In this document: in pieces, positions 16,507-23,131 of the stretch | Position numbering within the stretch: the stretch's first letter is position 1 | How the letters are laid out: each line of letters starts with the position of its first letter | Assembly (NCBI GenBank): GCA_013215385.1 | Contig: JABSOY010000005.1 | Coordinates: 62,001-126,000 of the forward strand | Source: Colwellia sp. | GTDB lineage: Bacteria > Pseudomonadota > Gammaproteobacteria > Enterobacterales > Alteromonadaceae | Direction of reading: 5' to 3' | DNA: 64,000 nucleotides | Notes under the pieces: model-generated | What the model was told of the DNA's origin: nothing | The model's database searches: none | The model's input: only the letters and a program-made list of their open reading frames with translations | Program-made: the position numbers and the translations under genes

Positions 16507-18696
16507 ATGGCGGTACAGTATTGGGTAGGTGATTTCTTTGTCGATTTATCCAGGAATCAAGTCACTCAAAAAGAGAAATCACAGACTATTGCCCCGAAAG
16601 CTTTGGCCGTTTTAACCTATCTGGCTGAAAATCAGGGTAAAGTGGTTAGCTACGATGAGTTATTTGCTAACGTATGGCCAGACACAGTGGTAACGCCTAA
16701 TACCTTACAAAGAAGCATCGCGCAACTAAGAAAAGTGCTGGGTCAAGACAGTAGTCTTCAATCCTATATTAAGACGCATGCGAAACAAGGATATAGCCTG
16801 GAGTGCGATGTTAAATGGCATGATGAAACACAAGCTAAGCCAGAAACAGTAGAGGAAACCGGAGAAAATCTTACAATAGCTGACAATTCACCCGAAAATG
16901 AAGTCAGTACAACCAAGGTTAAAAACGAAACCGACGCAGCAGAAACAACACCGCCTCCAAGATCATTATTTAAACTGATTGCGGTTGTTGGCATTGTTAT
17001 TTTGGCTATTATTGGTTTTAGCTACCTAACACCAACGCAACCGGTGAAATTATCCTTTGGAGAGTTACGTGCAATAACTACCACTGATAACAAAGAACAT
17101 TCGGGTATCTATTCGCCTGACGGTGAATACATTGTTTTTAACCGTTATTCAGAAAAACTCTGTTCTAGTAGCAATATCTGGGCAAAAAACATCAAAACAC
17201 AACAAGAAACCCAACTCACTAAAAAGGTAGGTCTCTACGGCAGTCTTAGTTTTTCTAAAGACGGCAAGAAACTGGTCTTTATTGAAACTGAAAACTGCAA
17301 CAAACCAATCACTCAGACGGATTGTTATAAACTGATGACCTTGGATTTTGAAAAAGCACTTGCCGCACTTCAATCTCCGAAGCTACTAATGGAGTGTAAA
17401 AACTCAAGAATAGCCAAGTCTACCTGGCTAAATAATAATAATGTTCTTTTATTGCAGAAGTTTTCTGATCGTTGGAAGTTAACCAGCTATTCGATAGCTG
17501 ACAACAAAAGTACGGTGATATACTCACTGAAAGACGGGAATTTCTTTGACTATGATTATTCAGTTAAAGACGACATAATCGCATTGACCAGTATCGACAA
17601 TGATGGCTTGCACTATATTGAAATACTCAAACCTGATGGCGAGGTTTTATCCAGTCATCAGATTGAATACCCCCCAGAAATACCGAACTTCAGAAATATC
17701 TATCCCAATTTCACCCCAACAAGTGAACTACTTATTTTTAGCACGGGCAGACAACTCTTTACCCTGTCTTATCAAGGTAAAATAACCAATATTAGTTTGC
17801 CTCTTGATGGACCAATGGGCTCGCCGGTATTTCACCCAAACGGTAAACGAGCGCTGATGATAAAGGGAATTTGGGATAGTGATATCGCGACAATATCCCT
17901 ATTACAATTAACGCAGACTCAAGCGGGTCAAACGCTAACCAAAGGCAATAATCATTACTCAATAATAGAGCGCTCAACCGTTGGCGAGGAAAATGCCATT
18001 TTCCAACCCAATGGAGAGTTAATCGCGTTTAAATCGACACGCTCTGGCGAGGGACAGGTTTGGATTACCGATGGCAAGGGTGCTCAGCAACTCACGAATT
18101 TCCCCATAGATAGTTATATTTCTGGGCTAGACTGGGCGGCTGATGGAGAAAGTGTTTTAGTCAATGTTAATGATATGCTCACCCAGGTGAACCTTGACTC
18201 AAGCCATATAGTCTTTCCACTTTCCCATCCTGTGGTGCAACTTTACCAATGGAATAGTGAAGATAATACCGCTTTATTGCTGGTACGGATCAAAGGGATA
18301 TTAACCTTTGGTGAGTTCAATCTGAACAACTCAGAGTTTAGCGTAATAACAGACAAGAAAGTCAGCTGGGCGCTTAAAAGCGAAGATGGTCGATTAATCT
18401 ATTCCGATCTCTTGAATCGATTCTGGCAGCCAGGTCCTGCTGAAGACCAGCTGATTGATGCACTAGAAGGTAAAGGAAGAAAAAAGCAACGGTTTAAGAT
18501 AAGAGACAATGTTGTTTATGGTATCAATGAGGAGTTTCAGTTGTGGTCGTATGATCTTAACAAGGATAATTTTAAGGTCCTCGGAAATATGCCTAAGAAC
18601 ATAGATTCTATAACCGATATTAATCAGACTGACATTCTACTTACAGTACGTATTTCTGCAAAAAAAGAAGTGGCTGAACTCACCTTAAGGGAATAA
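16507..18696 (+). CDS. ToxR/CadC-like membrane regulator with C-terminal beta-propeller
   Basis: About 729 residues. Residues 1-100 form an OmpR-type winged helix (PKALAVLTYLAENQGKVVSY, then DELFANVWPDTVVTPNTLQR and YIKTHAKQGYSLE). A polar linker leads to one transmembrane helix (about 154-175), and the remaining 550 residues, outside the cytoplasm, contain PD40/TolB-type propeller blades such as YSPDGEYIVFNRYS, FSKDGKKLVFIE, FQPNGELIAFKSTR and WAADGESVLVN. It should bind DNA while sensing a periplasmic signal. ATG 16507 is preferred over TTG 16474 because the winged helix begins there and GAG lies upstream. It is divergent from the esterase-propeller pair, its likely target. Confidence 0.9.
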   Translation: MAVQYWVGDFFVDLSRNQVTQKEKSQTIAPKALAVLTYLAENQGKVVSYDELFANVWPDTVVTPNTLQRSIAQLRKVLGQDSSLQSYIKTHAKQGYSLECDVKWHDETQAKPETVEETGENLTIADNSPENEVSTTKVKNETDAAETTPPPRSLFKLIAVVGIVILAIIGFSYLTPTQPVKLSFGELRAITTTDNKEHSGIYSPDGEYIVFNRYSEKLCSSSNIWAKNIKTQQETQLTKKVGLYGSLSFSKDGKKLVFIETENCNKPITQTDCYKLMTLDFEKALAALQSPKLLMECKNSRIAKSTWLNNNNVLLLQKFSDRWKLTSYSIADNKSTVIYSLKDGNFFDYDYSVKDDIIALTSIDNDGLHYIEILKPDGEVLSSHQIEYPPEIPNFRNIYPNFTPTSELLIFSTGRQLFTLSYQGKITNISLPLDGPMGSPVFHPNGKRALMIKGIWDSDIATISLLQLTQTQAGQTLTKGNNHYSIIERSTVGEENAIFQPNGELIAFKSTRSGEGQVWITDGKGAQQLTNFPIDSYISGLDWAADGESVLVNVNDMLTQVNLDSSHIVFPLSHPVVQLYQWNSEDNTALLLVRIKGILTFGEFNLNNSEFSVITDKKVSWALKSEDGRLIYSDLLNRFWQPGPAEDQLIDALEGKGRKKQRFKIRDNVVYGINEEFQLWSYDLNKDNFKVLGNMPKNIDSITDINQTDILLTVRISAKKEVAELTLRE

Positions 18697-18705
18697 AGCA
18701 ATTAG

Positions 18706-18748
18706 AAAAGGCCGATTGTCTGCTCGGGCAATCGACTGACCTTTTTAT
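18706..18748 (+). terminator. Terminator after the propeller regulator
   Basis: AAAAGG-CGATTG pairs with CAATCG-CCTTTTT around a 10-base loop, with a small asymmetric bulge in the right arm, followed by T-rich sequence. It is 10 bp past the stop codon. The 279 bp that follow, up to the first attC site, hold no recognisable gene; a 14-codon minus-strand frame (18907-18951) preceded by GAGG is too short to support. Confidence 0.75.
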
Positions 18749-19027
18749 ATAAAGCCACTTATGTGTGATGACCTAGGCTTTAGCCTGATTTCCAAATCTA
18801 GTATTCATAAGAAAAACCTTTTTCTTCAAGGTAATAAAATCCTTACAAGTGTAATGTTAAAATACAGGTTAACTTGCTGTAATTTATATCGTTAAGTTAT
18901 CGGTGTTTACTTGGTGAGTTCGTGGAGATGCATTGGTTTGTACGTTTCCATTCTAGCTTTCCTCTATTTCCACATTATAGCCCTAAGCACTAATTGTCTA
19001 TAATTGAATTCGGATTAGATTTTAAAT

Positions 19028-19127
19028 CGATAACGCCACGTTAAGGGGCAAATTGTAGTTGGCTAAAATGTTGAACACAGTGAAAACAGCCAACTATAAA
19101 TTTTCCTGATTAATTGCCTTGTTAGGT
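19028..19127 (-). repeat. attC site 1 (cassette A recombination site)
   Basis: Read on the minus strand it begins ACCTAACAAGGC (R'' box plus L'') and ends GTGGCGTTATCG (L' plus R' core GTTATCG). The centre has a perfect 8-bp stem, AGTTGGCT at 19057-19064 with AGCCAACT at 19088-19095. About 100 bp, a normal attC length. Its R'' pairs exactly with GTTAGGT at 19693-19699, the 5' end of the cassette it belongs to. It starts 2 bp after the stop of the cassette gene. Confidence 0.75.
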
Positions 19128-19129
19128 TT

Positions 19130-19669
19130 TTAGTTTATAACTTGAGAGAAATAATCATTAAGAGATATAGAAGAATGTCTTGTTTCAGGCGTTTTTCCAA
19201 TATTTGAACCAGACTTTTGACCAAAATATAATTTTTCACTATCAATATAAATTAAAGTGTAACTCGGAGCAGAATCGCTACTATCTGAATTATAAATAAA
19301 AGTCTCATTGAGGCCGTAGGCTTCAATACTTTCCTCACTTATAACTTTATCTGTAATTTCAAGTTTCGATATATCAATAGTATTAAACATCACTGAATTA
19401 CATACTGTATCAGTTGGATGGAAAAACTCTGTTTTATAAGTAGATTTCAGCGAAGAATTTATACTTACCTTAATATTGATGTACCATAAAGCTGTTGAGT
19501 TGTCAGTGGATAATGCACTGTAAGGAAAACATTCTTTTTTCCAAGAAGTATTTGATAAATTTGCTATAAAGTCTTTTTTTGACGTGTCAGTAGCAGCATC
19601 TCCTTCAGAACCACCACAAGAAAACAAAAACATTGACGAAAGAGCAATGGTAATTGATATATTTTTCAT
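19130..19669 (-). CDS. Integron-cassette lipoprotein of unknown function (cassette A)
   Basis: About 179 residues. A signal peptide with lipobox LFSC (cysteine at about residue 18, followed by GGSEGD) predicts a lipid-anchored exported protein; the GGSEGD start favours outer-membrane sorting over retention. The mature part is polar and rich in S, T, Y and N, with four further cysteine or tyrosine-rich strand-like segments and no recognised family. ATG 19669 has GGAG five bases upstream; an in-frame start at 19705 would lie inside the attC site. The gene fills a 665-bp cassette (19034-19698) and stops 2 bp from attC 1. The low GC matches the surroundings. Confidence 0.82.
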   Translation of the reverse strand: MKNISITIALSSMFLFSCGGSEGDAATDTSKKDFIANLSNTSWKKECFPYSALSTDNSTALWYINIKVSINSSLKSTYKTEFFHPTDTVCNSVMFNTIDISKLEITDKVISEESIEAYGLNETFIYNSDSSDSAPSYTLIYIDSEKLYFGQKSGSNIGKTPETRHSSISLNDYFSQVIN

Positions 19670-19692
19670 TTGTACTCCATATTTTGATAAAA

Positions 19693-19795
19693 ACCTAACG
19701 CCCAAATAACAGGCTAAGTAATAGTTGGCTAAAATGTGTAGCGAAGCGAAACGCAGCCAACTGTTGTGTGTCCTTGTTGAATTGCCTTGTTATGT
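19693..19795 (-). repeat. attC site 2 (cassette B recombination site)
   Basis: On the minus strand it starts ACATAACAAGGC and ends TTTGGGCGTTAGGT. The perfect 8-bp central stem AGTTGGCT (19723-19730) and AGCCAACT (19755-19762) matches site 1, and both share AGTTGGCTAAAATGT on the plus strand. Length 103 bp. The R'' box (GTTATGT in plus orientation, 19789-19795) matches the core site at 20049-20055, which begins cassette B. Its R' core is the first bases of cassette A. Confidence 0.78.
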
Positions 19796-19799
19796 GTAA

Positions 19800-20044
19800 T
19801 CACTGTTTAACACCACAAGATTCAATAAAAATCCCCCATCTTTTTGCAATGGACTCGCCTGAAGCTCCAGTTATAAATGAGTAACCATGTCCACGATTTT
19901 CAGTTTTAACTAAATCGTGGATAACTGAAACATCATGAGTTTTATGTAACAACGCATACATTTCAGCAGCAAAGCTAAATGCTTAGTCAAAATTGGGCAA
20001 CCATTGGCATTACCATCATTAGCTAATGCTTCATCCATACTCAT
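19800..20044 (-). pseudogene. Cassette B gene broken by a one-base frameshift
   Basis: From ATG 20044 the frame reads MSMDEALANDGNANGCPILT, then stays in the wrong frame and stops. The -1-shifted frame, just after base 19986, continues as AFSFAAEMYALLHKTHDVSV with IHDLVKTENRGHGYSFITG and ends SCGVKQ-TGA at 19800. Restoring a single base near ACTAA/GCA (about 19981-19986) gives a continuous protein of about 81 residues. The start lies 10 bp inside the cassette boundary and the stop 4 bp from attC 2, as expected for a cassette gene. No family is recognised. A sequencing error or recoding cannot be excluded. Confidence 0.65.
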
Positions 20045-20048
20045 TTAC

Positions 20049-20126
20049 ACATAACCATTTAATAGCGCGCAACTTGCGAATTTTTCTAGCAGGCAACCGC
20101 TCACTTTCATGCTATTAATGTTTTTA
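20049..20126 (-). repeat. Degenerate attC-like site 3
   Basis: Plus-strand ACATAACC at the left carries the core GTTATGT on the minus strand, which fits the 5' boundary of cassette B. CATTTAATAGC and GCTATTAATG form a 10-bp stem with one extra base, similar to the extrahelical bases of attC L arms. The right-hand box (GTTTTTA) no longer fits the consensus, and the central sequence differs from sites 1 and 2. It is therefore either a different attC type or a decayed one. Confidence 0.45.
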
Positions 20127-20162
20127 TCAGATAACCTAACCTATTGCTAGCTATAATGAAAT

Positions 20163-20255
20163 CATACCAATTTATATTTATCAACAGGACAAAAATGCGC
20201 AATTTACGCTTATACCTGAATATAGGGACAAGCTAATACTCTAAATATAAATTGG
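20163..20255. repeat. Small palindromic repeat with 14-bp perfect inverted ends
   Basis: CCAATTTATATTTA (20167-20180) and TAAATATAAATTGG (20242-20255) are perfect inverted repeats, 61 bp apart, preceded by CATA. The arrangement and the ACCAATTTATA end recall short dispersed palindromic elements of Alteromonadales genomes. It lies inside the third unit of the attC array. An ATG with AGGA upstream (20195) inside it opens only 13 codons before a stop, so I read it as repeat, not gene. The rest of this unit (20256-20627) has no convincing gene. Confidence 0.6.
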
Positions 20256-20627
20256 CGATTAATTATTTAGGTGTTTGCGGTGGCATTGTCGGTTTAGTTT
20301 CCCTTAATATTTATAGTCTCAATGACCGAAATGATGGCATAGTTGTCTGTCAGCATAAAAGCTTACCTATGTATTCTGCACTCTAAACAACCAACAATAC
20401 TCTTAATGTTAATTCGGAAAATTTGCTGTTAATGAAGTAAGCTAGAACGGCAGCTAGATGGTAAAATGAAATAATAATTAGAGAAGGCTGAACGGCTGTT
20501 GATCGCTCATTAACCGTGAATCTTTGATTACATTACGTTAAATTATTGGTGGACTCAGGAAGGTGGTGCATGTAAGGCTTAGTAGATTACCTTGAGCGTA
20601 GTCGCAAACTTATGGGGGAACACTGGC

Positions 20628-20720
20628 ATATAACACCCCATAAGAGGCTAAAAATTGTTTGTTAAAATGTGCAGCGAAGAGGAACCGAGTAAACTGCAGA
20701 CTTAAGCTGCTTAGTTACTC
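20628..20720 (-). repeat. Degenerate attC-like site 4
   Basis: The plus-strand order TAACACCCCATAAGAGGCTA then TTGTTTGTTAAAATGTGCAG and CGAAGAGGAAC follows site 2 (TAACGCCCAAATAACAGGCT, then AGTTGGCTAAAATGTGTAG, CGAAGCGAAAC) closely, with several substitutions. Outer boxes are GTTATAT at the minus-strand right end and GAGTAAC at its left. The central stem is weakened by mismatches. It ends 14 bp before the terminator of the next gene, so it marks the right edge of the array. Confidence 0.55.
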
Positions 20721-20733
20721 TTATCTTTAAGAC

Positions 20734-20769
20734 AAATAAAAAAGGAGCCAGTCGGTTCCTTTTTTATTT
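20734..20769 (-). terminator. Bidirectional-looking terminator after the second TonB receptor
   Basis: AAATAAAAAAGGAGCC pairs with GGTTCCTTTTTTATTT around a 4-base loop with one G-T pair. A/T tracts on both sides mean it could stop transcripts in both directions. It lies 41 bp after the receptor stop codon and separates that gene from the cassette array. Confidence 0.85.
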
Positions 20770-20809
20770 GTGAATATTCATTTGGCCTAAGTATTAATGA
20801 ATTAGCTAA

Positions 20810-23131
20810 CTAAAAGCTGCCACGAACACTTAAACTAACCTGCCTAGGTTTGCTTAATGTTATGTAATGAGTTTGTCGATCGGCAATATATTCCTCATCA
20901 AAAATGTTACGACCGATTAAATAAATACCGATAGTTTGCCACTCATAACCTAGCTGCACATTAACTAAGGTACGATTGTCATTAGGTAAATCAAAATTAG
21001 GGTGTGCTTTGTCTAGCCCTCTTGCATATGGGTTAACATCTCCAGCTGACTCACCAGCATAGTTAGCATTTATATCAGCAAAAAAACCGTTGTCAGCAAT
21101 ATAGGTGCCACCTACAGTGGCGGTCCACTCTGGAGAGTCTGCAAAACTACGTCCCGATAAGTCAATATTTTCTTCACCTGGAATTTCCAAGGTATAGTCA
21201 GTAAATGCAGTCTTCGCCTGACCTAATGCTGAATAGAATTTAACTTGGTCGTTTAGCTGATAATTTACTTCTATTTCAAAACCTTTAACCGTTGATTTAG
21301 CAGCGTTATCAGTTTGGGTATCAAAAGTACTTTCAGATAGCTGCACAATTACTTGTTGATCTTGCCAGTCGAGATAAAAAACATTGGCATTAACGATTAA
21401 AGCACCGTCTAACCAACTAGAACGCAAAGATAACTCATAGTTGTCAGTATACTCAGCATCGTATTGGAATGTTGTTGCTCTCGCATCATTGGTACCAACA
21501 CCACCTGAACGATAGCCTTTTTGGTAGGTAAAACTCGTGGTTAAGTCTTCATTCCAGTGGTAGCTCGCACCTATTTTGGGTAACAGGGTATTAAAGTCAG
21601 CATCAACAAGTGGCTTAGTTTTGCTGGCTTGCGCGACTGTGTTGTGAATAAATAAATTTAAGCCAGTAACTAATGGAATAATGCCCTGATAAGGCGTGCC
21701 TTGATAACTAGTGGGGTCGGGCATTAACTGAGCGTTTAATAACGCTAGTTTGGTGTTGCCGGCATTTTGCTGTTTTTCATGATCCCAACGTAAACCAGCA
21801 TAAATATCCCACTGCTCATTTAACTGATAAACAAAGTCAGTAAAAATTGCATAACTTGTTACTTCACTTGCTGTGGTTGAAGTATTTAAGTAAGTCACGG
21901 GATCAAAAGCACTGTATTGTGCAATAACTAAATCAGCTGTACTAACATCTAGACCATAGCTGTTTTGCAAGAATCGGCTATTTAAACCAATAGTGGCCAA
22001 ACTAGTATAAGAGGTGCCAGAGAGATCGGTATTTATTTTTTCATTAGTGTAATAACCACCGATAATGCCTTGAAAACCATCATAATCAAAATTAAAGCGT
22101 AACTCTTGGCTTAGATTATCAACTTCTACACCATAAACCCGAGTGCCTTTATCTTCTGGACCATTATCGCCATCCCAGTCATAACCTGAATTGACATCAG
22201 AATAGGCGGTAACTGCGGTTACACTCCATTCATCGTTAATTAGGTAGTTAGCTGCTAATGTTATAAGGTCAGCATCATAAAACTGTTCTTGTTTATCATT
22301 GTTATCGGTATAACGTTGCTTATATGGACTGCCAGATACTGGTTCATAAATACCGTTCGTGCCACGGGTATTCTTTGCATGTGTGTAGCTTAATTGTACT
22401 TCAAGATCAGGGATAGCATCAGGAGTAAGTAATACCTTTAGCCGGTATAAATCATTTTCATTAAAGTCACTTGACTCGTTGCGAGTAATATTGGTATTAA
22501 AACCGTCTATTTCTTTATGTTCACCACTCAAGCGAAAAGCCAGTTGGTCTTCTACAATACCACCACCGAATGCGATAGCCGCTTCTTTCTCACCATATTC
22601 TCCGCCTTGTAAACGATAAACACCTTGCCATTCATCGGTTGGTCTTTGTGTATTTAAAATGATAGCACCGGCAAGCGCATTGCGGCCTTGTAGTGTTGAT
22701 TGTGGGCCACGTAAAATTTCTACTTGTTGAGCATCCCACGTTGAAAAACCACCACCGTTAATCATTTGCTGAGGTAAGGCTGCACCATCAACATAAACAC
22801 TGGCTAAATAACTATTACCACCACCAGACACGTTCGCACCATTTATTCCGCGAATACTAAAACCATTGGACGGTGTTGCATAAGTATTAGCAGTAAAAGT
22901 TAGTGCATCGGAAAAGTTTTTTATATTTTGCTGTTCAAATTGCTTAATGGTAATAACGGCAACACTGGTGGTGGTTTCTTGTAGAGTTCGGGAAATTTTT
23001 TGTCCAGTGACAACAATTCTTTCAATCTGCTGTTCTTCAGCAGCTTTTTCTTGAATGTCAGTATTAGCACTGACAGTTGTAGCGAGTAATAAACCAGCGC
23101 TTATTGCACTAGCGACGAGAGATAATTTCAT
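20810..23131 (-). CDS. TonB-dependent receptor, probably for ferric siderophore
   Basis: About 773 residues: a signal peptide (about 1-25, ending VSA-N), a TonB-box-like IERIVVTGQK, a plug (DALTFTANTYATPSNGFSIR, then VEILRGPQSTLQGRNALAGA) and a 22-strand barrel ending in phenylalanine (SVRGSF). The start ATG 23131 has AAAGGTG six bases upstream; a start at 23182 would put a non-hydrophobic extension before the signal peptide. A Fur-box-like sequence lies about 36-50 bp upstream, suggesting iron repression and a siderophore substrate; both are inferences. It is a single gene with no transporter beside it. Confidence 0.88.
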   Translation of the reverse strand: MKLSLVASAISAGLLLATTVSANTDIQEKAAEEQQIERIVVTGQKISRTLQETTTSVAVITIKQFEQQNIKNFSDALTFTANTYATPSNGFSIRGINGANVSGGGNSYLASVYVDGAALPQQMINGGGFSTWDAQQVEILRGPQSTLQGRNALAGAIILNTQRPTDEWQGVYRLQGGEYGEKEAAIAFGGGIVEDQLAFRLSGEHKEIDGFNTNITRNESSDFNENDLYRLKVLLTPDAIPDLEVQLSYTHAKNTRGTNGIYEPVSGSPYKQRYTDNNDKQEQFYDADLITLAANYLINDEWSVTAVTAYSDVNSGYDWDGDNGPEDKGTRVYGVEVDNLSQELRFNFDYDGFQGIIGGYYTNEKINTDLSGTSYTSLATIGLNSRFLQNSYGLDVSTADLVIAQYSAFDPVTYLNTSTTASEVTSYAIFTDFVYQLNEQWDIYAGLRWDHEKQQNAGNTKLALLNAQLMPDPTSYQGTPYQGIIPLVTGLNLFIHNTVAQASKTKPLVDADFNTLLPKIGASYHWNEDLTTSFTYQKGYRSGGVGTNDARATTFQYDAEYTDNYELSLRSSWLDGALIVNANVFYLDWQDQQVIVQLSESTFDTQTDNAAKSTVKGFEIEVNYQLNDQVKFYSALGQAKTAFTDYTLEIPGEENIDLSGRSFADSPEWTATVGGTYIADNGFFADINANYAGESAGDVNPYARGLDKAHPNFDLPNDNRTLVNVQLGYEWQTIGIYLIGRNIFDEEYIADRQTHYITLSKPRQVSLSVRGSF

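Follow-up and report, generated by a model that had tools for sequence, protein, structure and literature searches.

The region from about 18.9 to 20.72 kb of the window, by which we mean the whole 64,000-nucleotide stretch of Colwellia DNA analysed, is very probably a small, partly decayed cluster of attC sites without an integrase (CALIN), read on the minus strand and one of about thirty attC clusters in its genome. The best reading of the locus is that of an ageing satellite of a widely scattered integron system. CALINs are described in PMC9024848, and the likeness to them consists in at least two attC sites that lie close together in one orientation with no integrase near. Nothing essential separates the window cluster from that class. 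The cluster is real but unremarkable as a representative of a familiar class of element. The interest lies in the scatter of attC clusters rather than in this one: from such genomes one could learn whether small arrays without an integrase come about when cassettes are inserted at host sites or when one large array breaks up. The window covers positions 62001-126000 of contig C37 (576,559 bases) in a draft genome of 5.1 Mb and 40 contigs. An earlier note on this DNA had called the locus CALIN-like, partly decayed and part of a Colwellia-type chromosome. Three attC sites, one of them degenerate, and the nearest relatives of the left-hand gene, which lie in Colwellia (79% for a Colwellia MAG, 77% for C. 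piezophila), bear this description out.

The sites were identified with a covariance model, R1, made from 36 aligned attC sites of the same genome as the window but none from the window itself. The training sites were chosen by the pattern TAACG plus TTGTTA plus a 7-bp inverted repeat (37 non-window sites picked, one dropped as not attC-like). The constancy of the outer boxes in R1 is thus partly by construction, because the pattern demanded those three features. The alignment contains 29 pairs, 16 of them with changes on both sides, and an unpaired G at alignment column 97; its members follow the attC plan of outer R boxes, paired L boxes with an unpaired G and a long central stem. A BLAST search of the genome with site 2 as the query yielded 74 candidates, 40 of which were scored matches, the window copy included. 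Across the 64-kb window, R1 recovered three sites inside 1.7 kb, each with an E-value of 2.2e-7 or better: site 1 (19028-19127, minus strand; 80.8 bits, E 3.4e-19), site 2 (19693-19795, minus; 86.1 bits, E 1.3e-20) and the degenerate site 4 (20628-20720, minus; 37.4 bits, E 2.2e-7), which has an 8-base gap in one arm. The next match in the window reached only 14.9 bits.

Four attC-like sites bounding three units had been proposed here. Sites 1 and 2, at exactly the proposed coordinates, and site 4 are recovered, all in the same orientation, but the proposed site 3 (20049-20126) gave no attC match: with filters off, its piece 20060-20117 scored 7.1 bits (E 2.2), and its folding did not exceed that of shuffled sequence (z -0.26 to -0.49 for two lengths on both strands). 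The claimed decay thus holds for site 4, whereas site 3 is not an attC by this model, and two cassettes rather than three are recognisable. With its low score and lack of folding excess, the remainder of the proposed site (20056-20126) may represent either a boundary to host DNA or a site in advanced decay. Single-stranded DNA folding gave z-scores of -2.9 (minus) and -2.1 (plus) for site 1, -1.0 and -1.9 for site 2, and 0.0 and 0.6 for site 4. By folding alone, the minus strand of site 2 would therefore not stand out; the covariance model is the stronger test. No window sequence matched Rfam at the gathering score, and a tRNA search found none. When 18500-21000 was searched down to E 1, a single sub-threshold Rfam match, to an sRNA, appeared and was taken as chance.

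Sites 1 and 2 keep most of the R1 pairs and share the perfect stem AGTTGGCT/AGCCAACT. This stem, pointed out before, is indeed present, but it lies near the family consensus: together with AAAATGT it occurs seven times in the genome, two of these being sites 1 and 2, and the reversed pattern does not occur. The attC box consensus is RYYYAAC for R'' and GTTRRRY for R'. The R'' of site 1 (ACCTAAC, 19127-19121) and the R' of site 2 (GTTAGGT, 19699-19693) fit it in full, and the R'' of site 2 (ACATAAC, 19795-19789) is off at one base. In the R' of site 1 (GTTATCG, 19034-19028), GTT and the following A are kept and the last three bases depart from consensus; site 4 fits less well. The canonical attC top strand, as in the aadA and VCR sites, starts with TAACAA and ends with GGCGTTA. 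The minus strand here is the attC top strand, because this canonical form, the orientation of the open reading frames and the position of integrases in relatives all agree. The strand modelled by R1, plus in the window, is the attC bottom strand, and the cassettes are read on minus.

Cassette A (19034-19698, minus) begins where site 2 ends, at G^TTAGGT (19699-19693), and closes with its own attC, site 1. Its opening core is reciprocal to its own R'' at seven of seven positions, as had been claimed for the pair GTTAGGT/ACCTAAC. It holds a 191-aa open reading frame (19130-19705, minus) with a TTG start as listed and an inner ATG at 19669; started from the latter, the product has a presumably lipoprotein-like N-terminus with the motif LFSCGG. 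The 191-aa product has no Pfam match.

Cassette B, whose attC is site 2, would span 19699-20054 (minus) if opened by the box GTTATGT, as judged from the sequence, the list of open reading frames and the three-frame translation. This box (20055-20049) is exactly reciprocal to the R'' of site 2 and ends four bases ahead of an ATG at 20044; given how often its 7-mer occurs in the window, chance would supply 0.02 copies in 254 bp or 0.07 in 830 bp. The reciprocity GTTATGT/ACATAAC asserted earlier is therefore complete (7/7), but through this one box; with site 4 in its place, agreement falls to 6/7. The cassette B gene is broken by a frameshift, the frame of the ATG at 20044 ending early and another frame continuing to 19800. 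The assertion that such reciprocity is expected only if the units moved as circles claims too much for one pair, although the genome-wide trend given below favours it.

Beyond the two cassettes, the locus becomes less orderly on both sides. Site 4 stands alone, and no cassette structure was seen in 20056-20628. Within that interval, 20389-20512 is 90% identical over 125 bp to an intergenic stretch of the congener G005, which has no attC match and sits between open reading frames resembling apbE and rimO (named by eye). A neighbouring 52-bp piece (20321-20372) is 79% like a piece of contig C3 of the same genome, where a weak attC match lies some 200 bp away. On the other side, a box CGATAAC (18896-18902, minus) is reciprocal to the R' of site 1, with about 0.016 occurrences expected in 140 bp. 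No attC match adjoins it (R1, filters off), and it may be the remnant of another cassette that has lost its attC.

The window cluster has much company. At least 119 R1 matches with E up to 0.01 were found in the genome among the best 150 of 3023 first-look candidates scored; the weakest of them, with less than about 28 bits, may have arisen by chance. Grouped by a 4-kb rule they form 30 clusters, 19 with at least two sites and 13 with at least three, and many of the clusters are degenerate. Box reciprocity was complete (7/7) in 35 of 87 adjacent pairs, while 2000 shuffles gave a mean of 3.5 and a maximum of 11; seven of the 119 sites, with sequence lacking or cut by a contig end, were dropped from this count, and one site misregistered at a contig end was scored as a miss. 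In clusters of at least three sites, the longest open reading frame (at least 70 aa) between neighbours lay opposite the R1 strand in 66 of 69 gaps. A comparison of 89 cassette bodies gave two pairs alike across different clusters (90% and 72%). That the hairpins are REP-like or terminator-like repeats and not attC, as their many genome copies might suggest, is highly improbable in view of the box reciprocity, the orientation of the open reading frames and the position beside IntI in relatives. Nor do the hairpins recur at many unrelated loci: 789 kb of other DNA from the same genome (40 stretches) held almost no matches, with only one already-listed attC pair above 28 bits and the next match at 25.9.

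The locus was said to be without integrase, which is true of the locus but not of the genome. It is not a complete integron: no intI gene lies beside the array or anywhere on contig C37, and none of the ten genome matches to the IntI profile TIGR02249 at E 0.001 falls on that contig, all ten being on others. None of the ten is over the cut-off, and the assembly contains no complete IntI gene; below-cut-off matches to TIGR02249 also occur in 14 of 14 control genomes, so that weak matches mean little. At the starts of two contigs, C28 and C16 (positions 1-125 of each), the same first 77 bases are the 3′ end of intI, after which the contigs diverge. The tail on C28 is intact, its last 41 codons encoding 41 of 41 residues identical to the IntI of G005, and the tail on C16 is frameshifted. 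At least two copies of intI thus seem to exist in the genome, and the rest of the gene is probably a repeated stretch that was not placed in the assembly. Because of these two contig starts and the thirty or so attC clusters, the array in the window is not an isolated oddity. Two observations were made in passing. Positions 200-17800 of C16, beside the intI remnant, carry small, mostly minus-strand genes, among them acetyltransferase-like and VOC-like ones (named by eye), kinds often found in cassettes; none of the R1 matches listed falls there. Between attC clusters on contig C9 (13089-13865) lies the remnant of a tyrosine recombinase gene, one stretch of which contains seven stops. Over about 310 residues it shares about 25% identity with IntI; it may come from a tyrosine recombinase other than IntI.

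Related genomes carry the same machinery. IntI scored over the cut-off in 40 of the 59 genomes searched, the source genome being counted as a negative, and in four of five congeners; R1 matches at E 1e-4 occurred in at least 33 of 40 genomes (the source genome counted, with at most about 101 candidates scored in each). In 11 relatives (G001, G002, G012, G017, G018, G023, G026, G034, G039, G042 and G049), a full-length IntI lies within 4 kb of an attC match among the matches listed, as read by eye. In all 11 it is on the R1 strand at the 3′ side, the canonical opposed arrangement. An exception is one IntI of G004 (contig C26), in non-canonical orientation with the nearest listed attC 5.5 kb away.

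These elements suggest how the window cluster would have worked. Once folded into a hairpin, the attC bottom strand would be bound and recombined by an integron integrase supplied in trans, and cassettes A and B would once have been excised and inserted as circles by way of such hairpins. According to PMC12444791, which also cites attG insertion, CALINs can be mobilised in trans. With a good attC site at either end, cassette A might in principle still be moved today by an integrase acting in trans. The gene of cassette B is broken, and site 4 is probably dead. An intact, active integrase and its past or present action on the window cluster are inferences.

Movement of cassette A as a unit is supported by its sole relative. 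Among 58 other genomes, the 191-aa protein has one counterpart, in the congener G002, 76% identical and with one TAG inside. The cassette A DNA is 83% identical there over 683 bp (window 19118-19797), a figure to which generic attC likeness contributes in part, since the alignable stretch takes in the cassette body and, at one end, attC sequence as well. The G002 copy of the body is flanked by two attC-like matches, one of 28.7 bits and a very weak one of 16.5 bits. When window 18600-20900 was compared with 3.6 kb around that copy, nothing else was alike but short attC pieces. The body thus lies in other surroundings there than in the window; shared ancestry of old date, followed by rearrangement, would be another way to explain the likeness.

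Two histories may account for the present place of the cluster. It lies between the 3′ ends of two convergent genes, which end at 18696 on plus and 20810 on minus. A possible, if tentative, account is that an integrase put cassettes A and B into a host site of the attG kind between these genes, so that they never belonged to a larger integron. The convergent setting agrees with this, as does the box GTTATGT at 20055, which can open cassette B without a preceding attC. Some other clusters in the genome have attC sites nearly identical to those of the large array on contig C8 (one in a C4 cluster is identical to a C8 site over 95 bp), and PMC12444791 describes insertion at attG in E. coli. Against such an insertion, site 4 further right suggests older cassette DNA, and clear opening boxes are few: of 27 cluster ends inspected over up to 2 kb, just 6 had an exact box of the GTT kind, a number that may include chance occurrences. 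The searches turned up no relative that has both flanks, and hence no empty site is shown; downstream of the left-hand gene, the TonB receptor and hemE were absent at 14 of 14 loci (0.1-6 kb examined).

Coming close to an even chance is a different history, in which a larger sedentary integron broke up and a rearrangement carried one piece of it here, where it has decayed. On both sides there are what look like decayed remains, namely site 4 and the box at 18896; many clusters of the genome are degenerate; and the three closest named relatives examined have different genes after the left-hand one. In relatives, moreover, attC sequences lie near both flanking genes: 2 of 12 named relatives have matches near the left-hand gene, and the G005 homologue of the window's TonB receptor has one (L095, 4980-5078; 85.7 bits) 1.1 kb from its 5′ end, in each case at a position that differs from the one in the window. 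Weighing against a fragment are the lack of an integrase match on C37, the lack of any mobile-element gene recognised by eye among open reading frames of at least 100 aa, and the many breaks that 20 separate clusters in the closed genome G012 would need.

Whichever way it arose, the preferred reading of the cluster as an ageing satellite sets it among known systems. As in sedentary chromosomal integrons of the Vibrio and Shewanella kind, the attC sites are alike within the genome, the cassette genes run mostly in one direction and IntI is frequent among the genomes searched. Unlike in those systems, the window locus has no integrase, and the sites are spread over many loci instead of one array. 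Closer in this respect are the CALINs of Xanthomonas away from ilvD, likewise attC clusters off the integrase locus, for which PMC12444791 reports seven such loci across species. The closed relatives G012 and G001 have 91 and 58 R1 sites, which form 20 and 17 clusters when single sites are counted as clusters; 17 and 10 of these have at least two sites. Within a limited library, no literature on Colwellia integrons or attC was found by title or abstract start. It is conceivable, though rather unlikely, that in Colwellia-like bacteria the integrase has used the whole chromosome as a platform, setting down single cassettes or small groups of them at numerous ordinary host sites. If so, some twenty to thirty small arrays per genome would still be exchanging cassettes, the one in the window being an ageing member.

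The orientation of the clusters relative to replication leans one way in the two closed relatives. For G012 and G001 together, the binomial p was 0.008, and for clusters of at least two sites 20 of 27 followed the trend (p 0.019); the largest G012 cluster lies close to the switch point. This agrees with the trend published for sedentary integrons, given as 25 of 30 in PMC5371416 and also present in PMC11023631. Among the matches listed, four other closed genomes ran along the trend in 4 of 4 cases (G026), in 7 of 7 listed sites (G018, where 16 exist, several close together), in 2 of 2 clear cases with two unclear (G042) and in 1 of 4 clear cases with one unclear (G034). The source genome, a draft, gave 18 of 28 (p 0.18), a count confounded by the arrays' own skew. 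The window cluster itself runs the other way, with its bottom strand on the lagging-strand template. Two large attC arrays of G034 (contig C1, 1779817-1800319 and 2759750-2788253) are contrary to the published trend for large arrays, because their bottom strands lie on the lagging-strand template as judged from sparse GC-skew samples.
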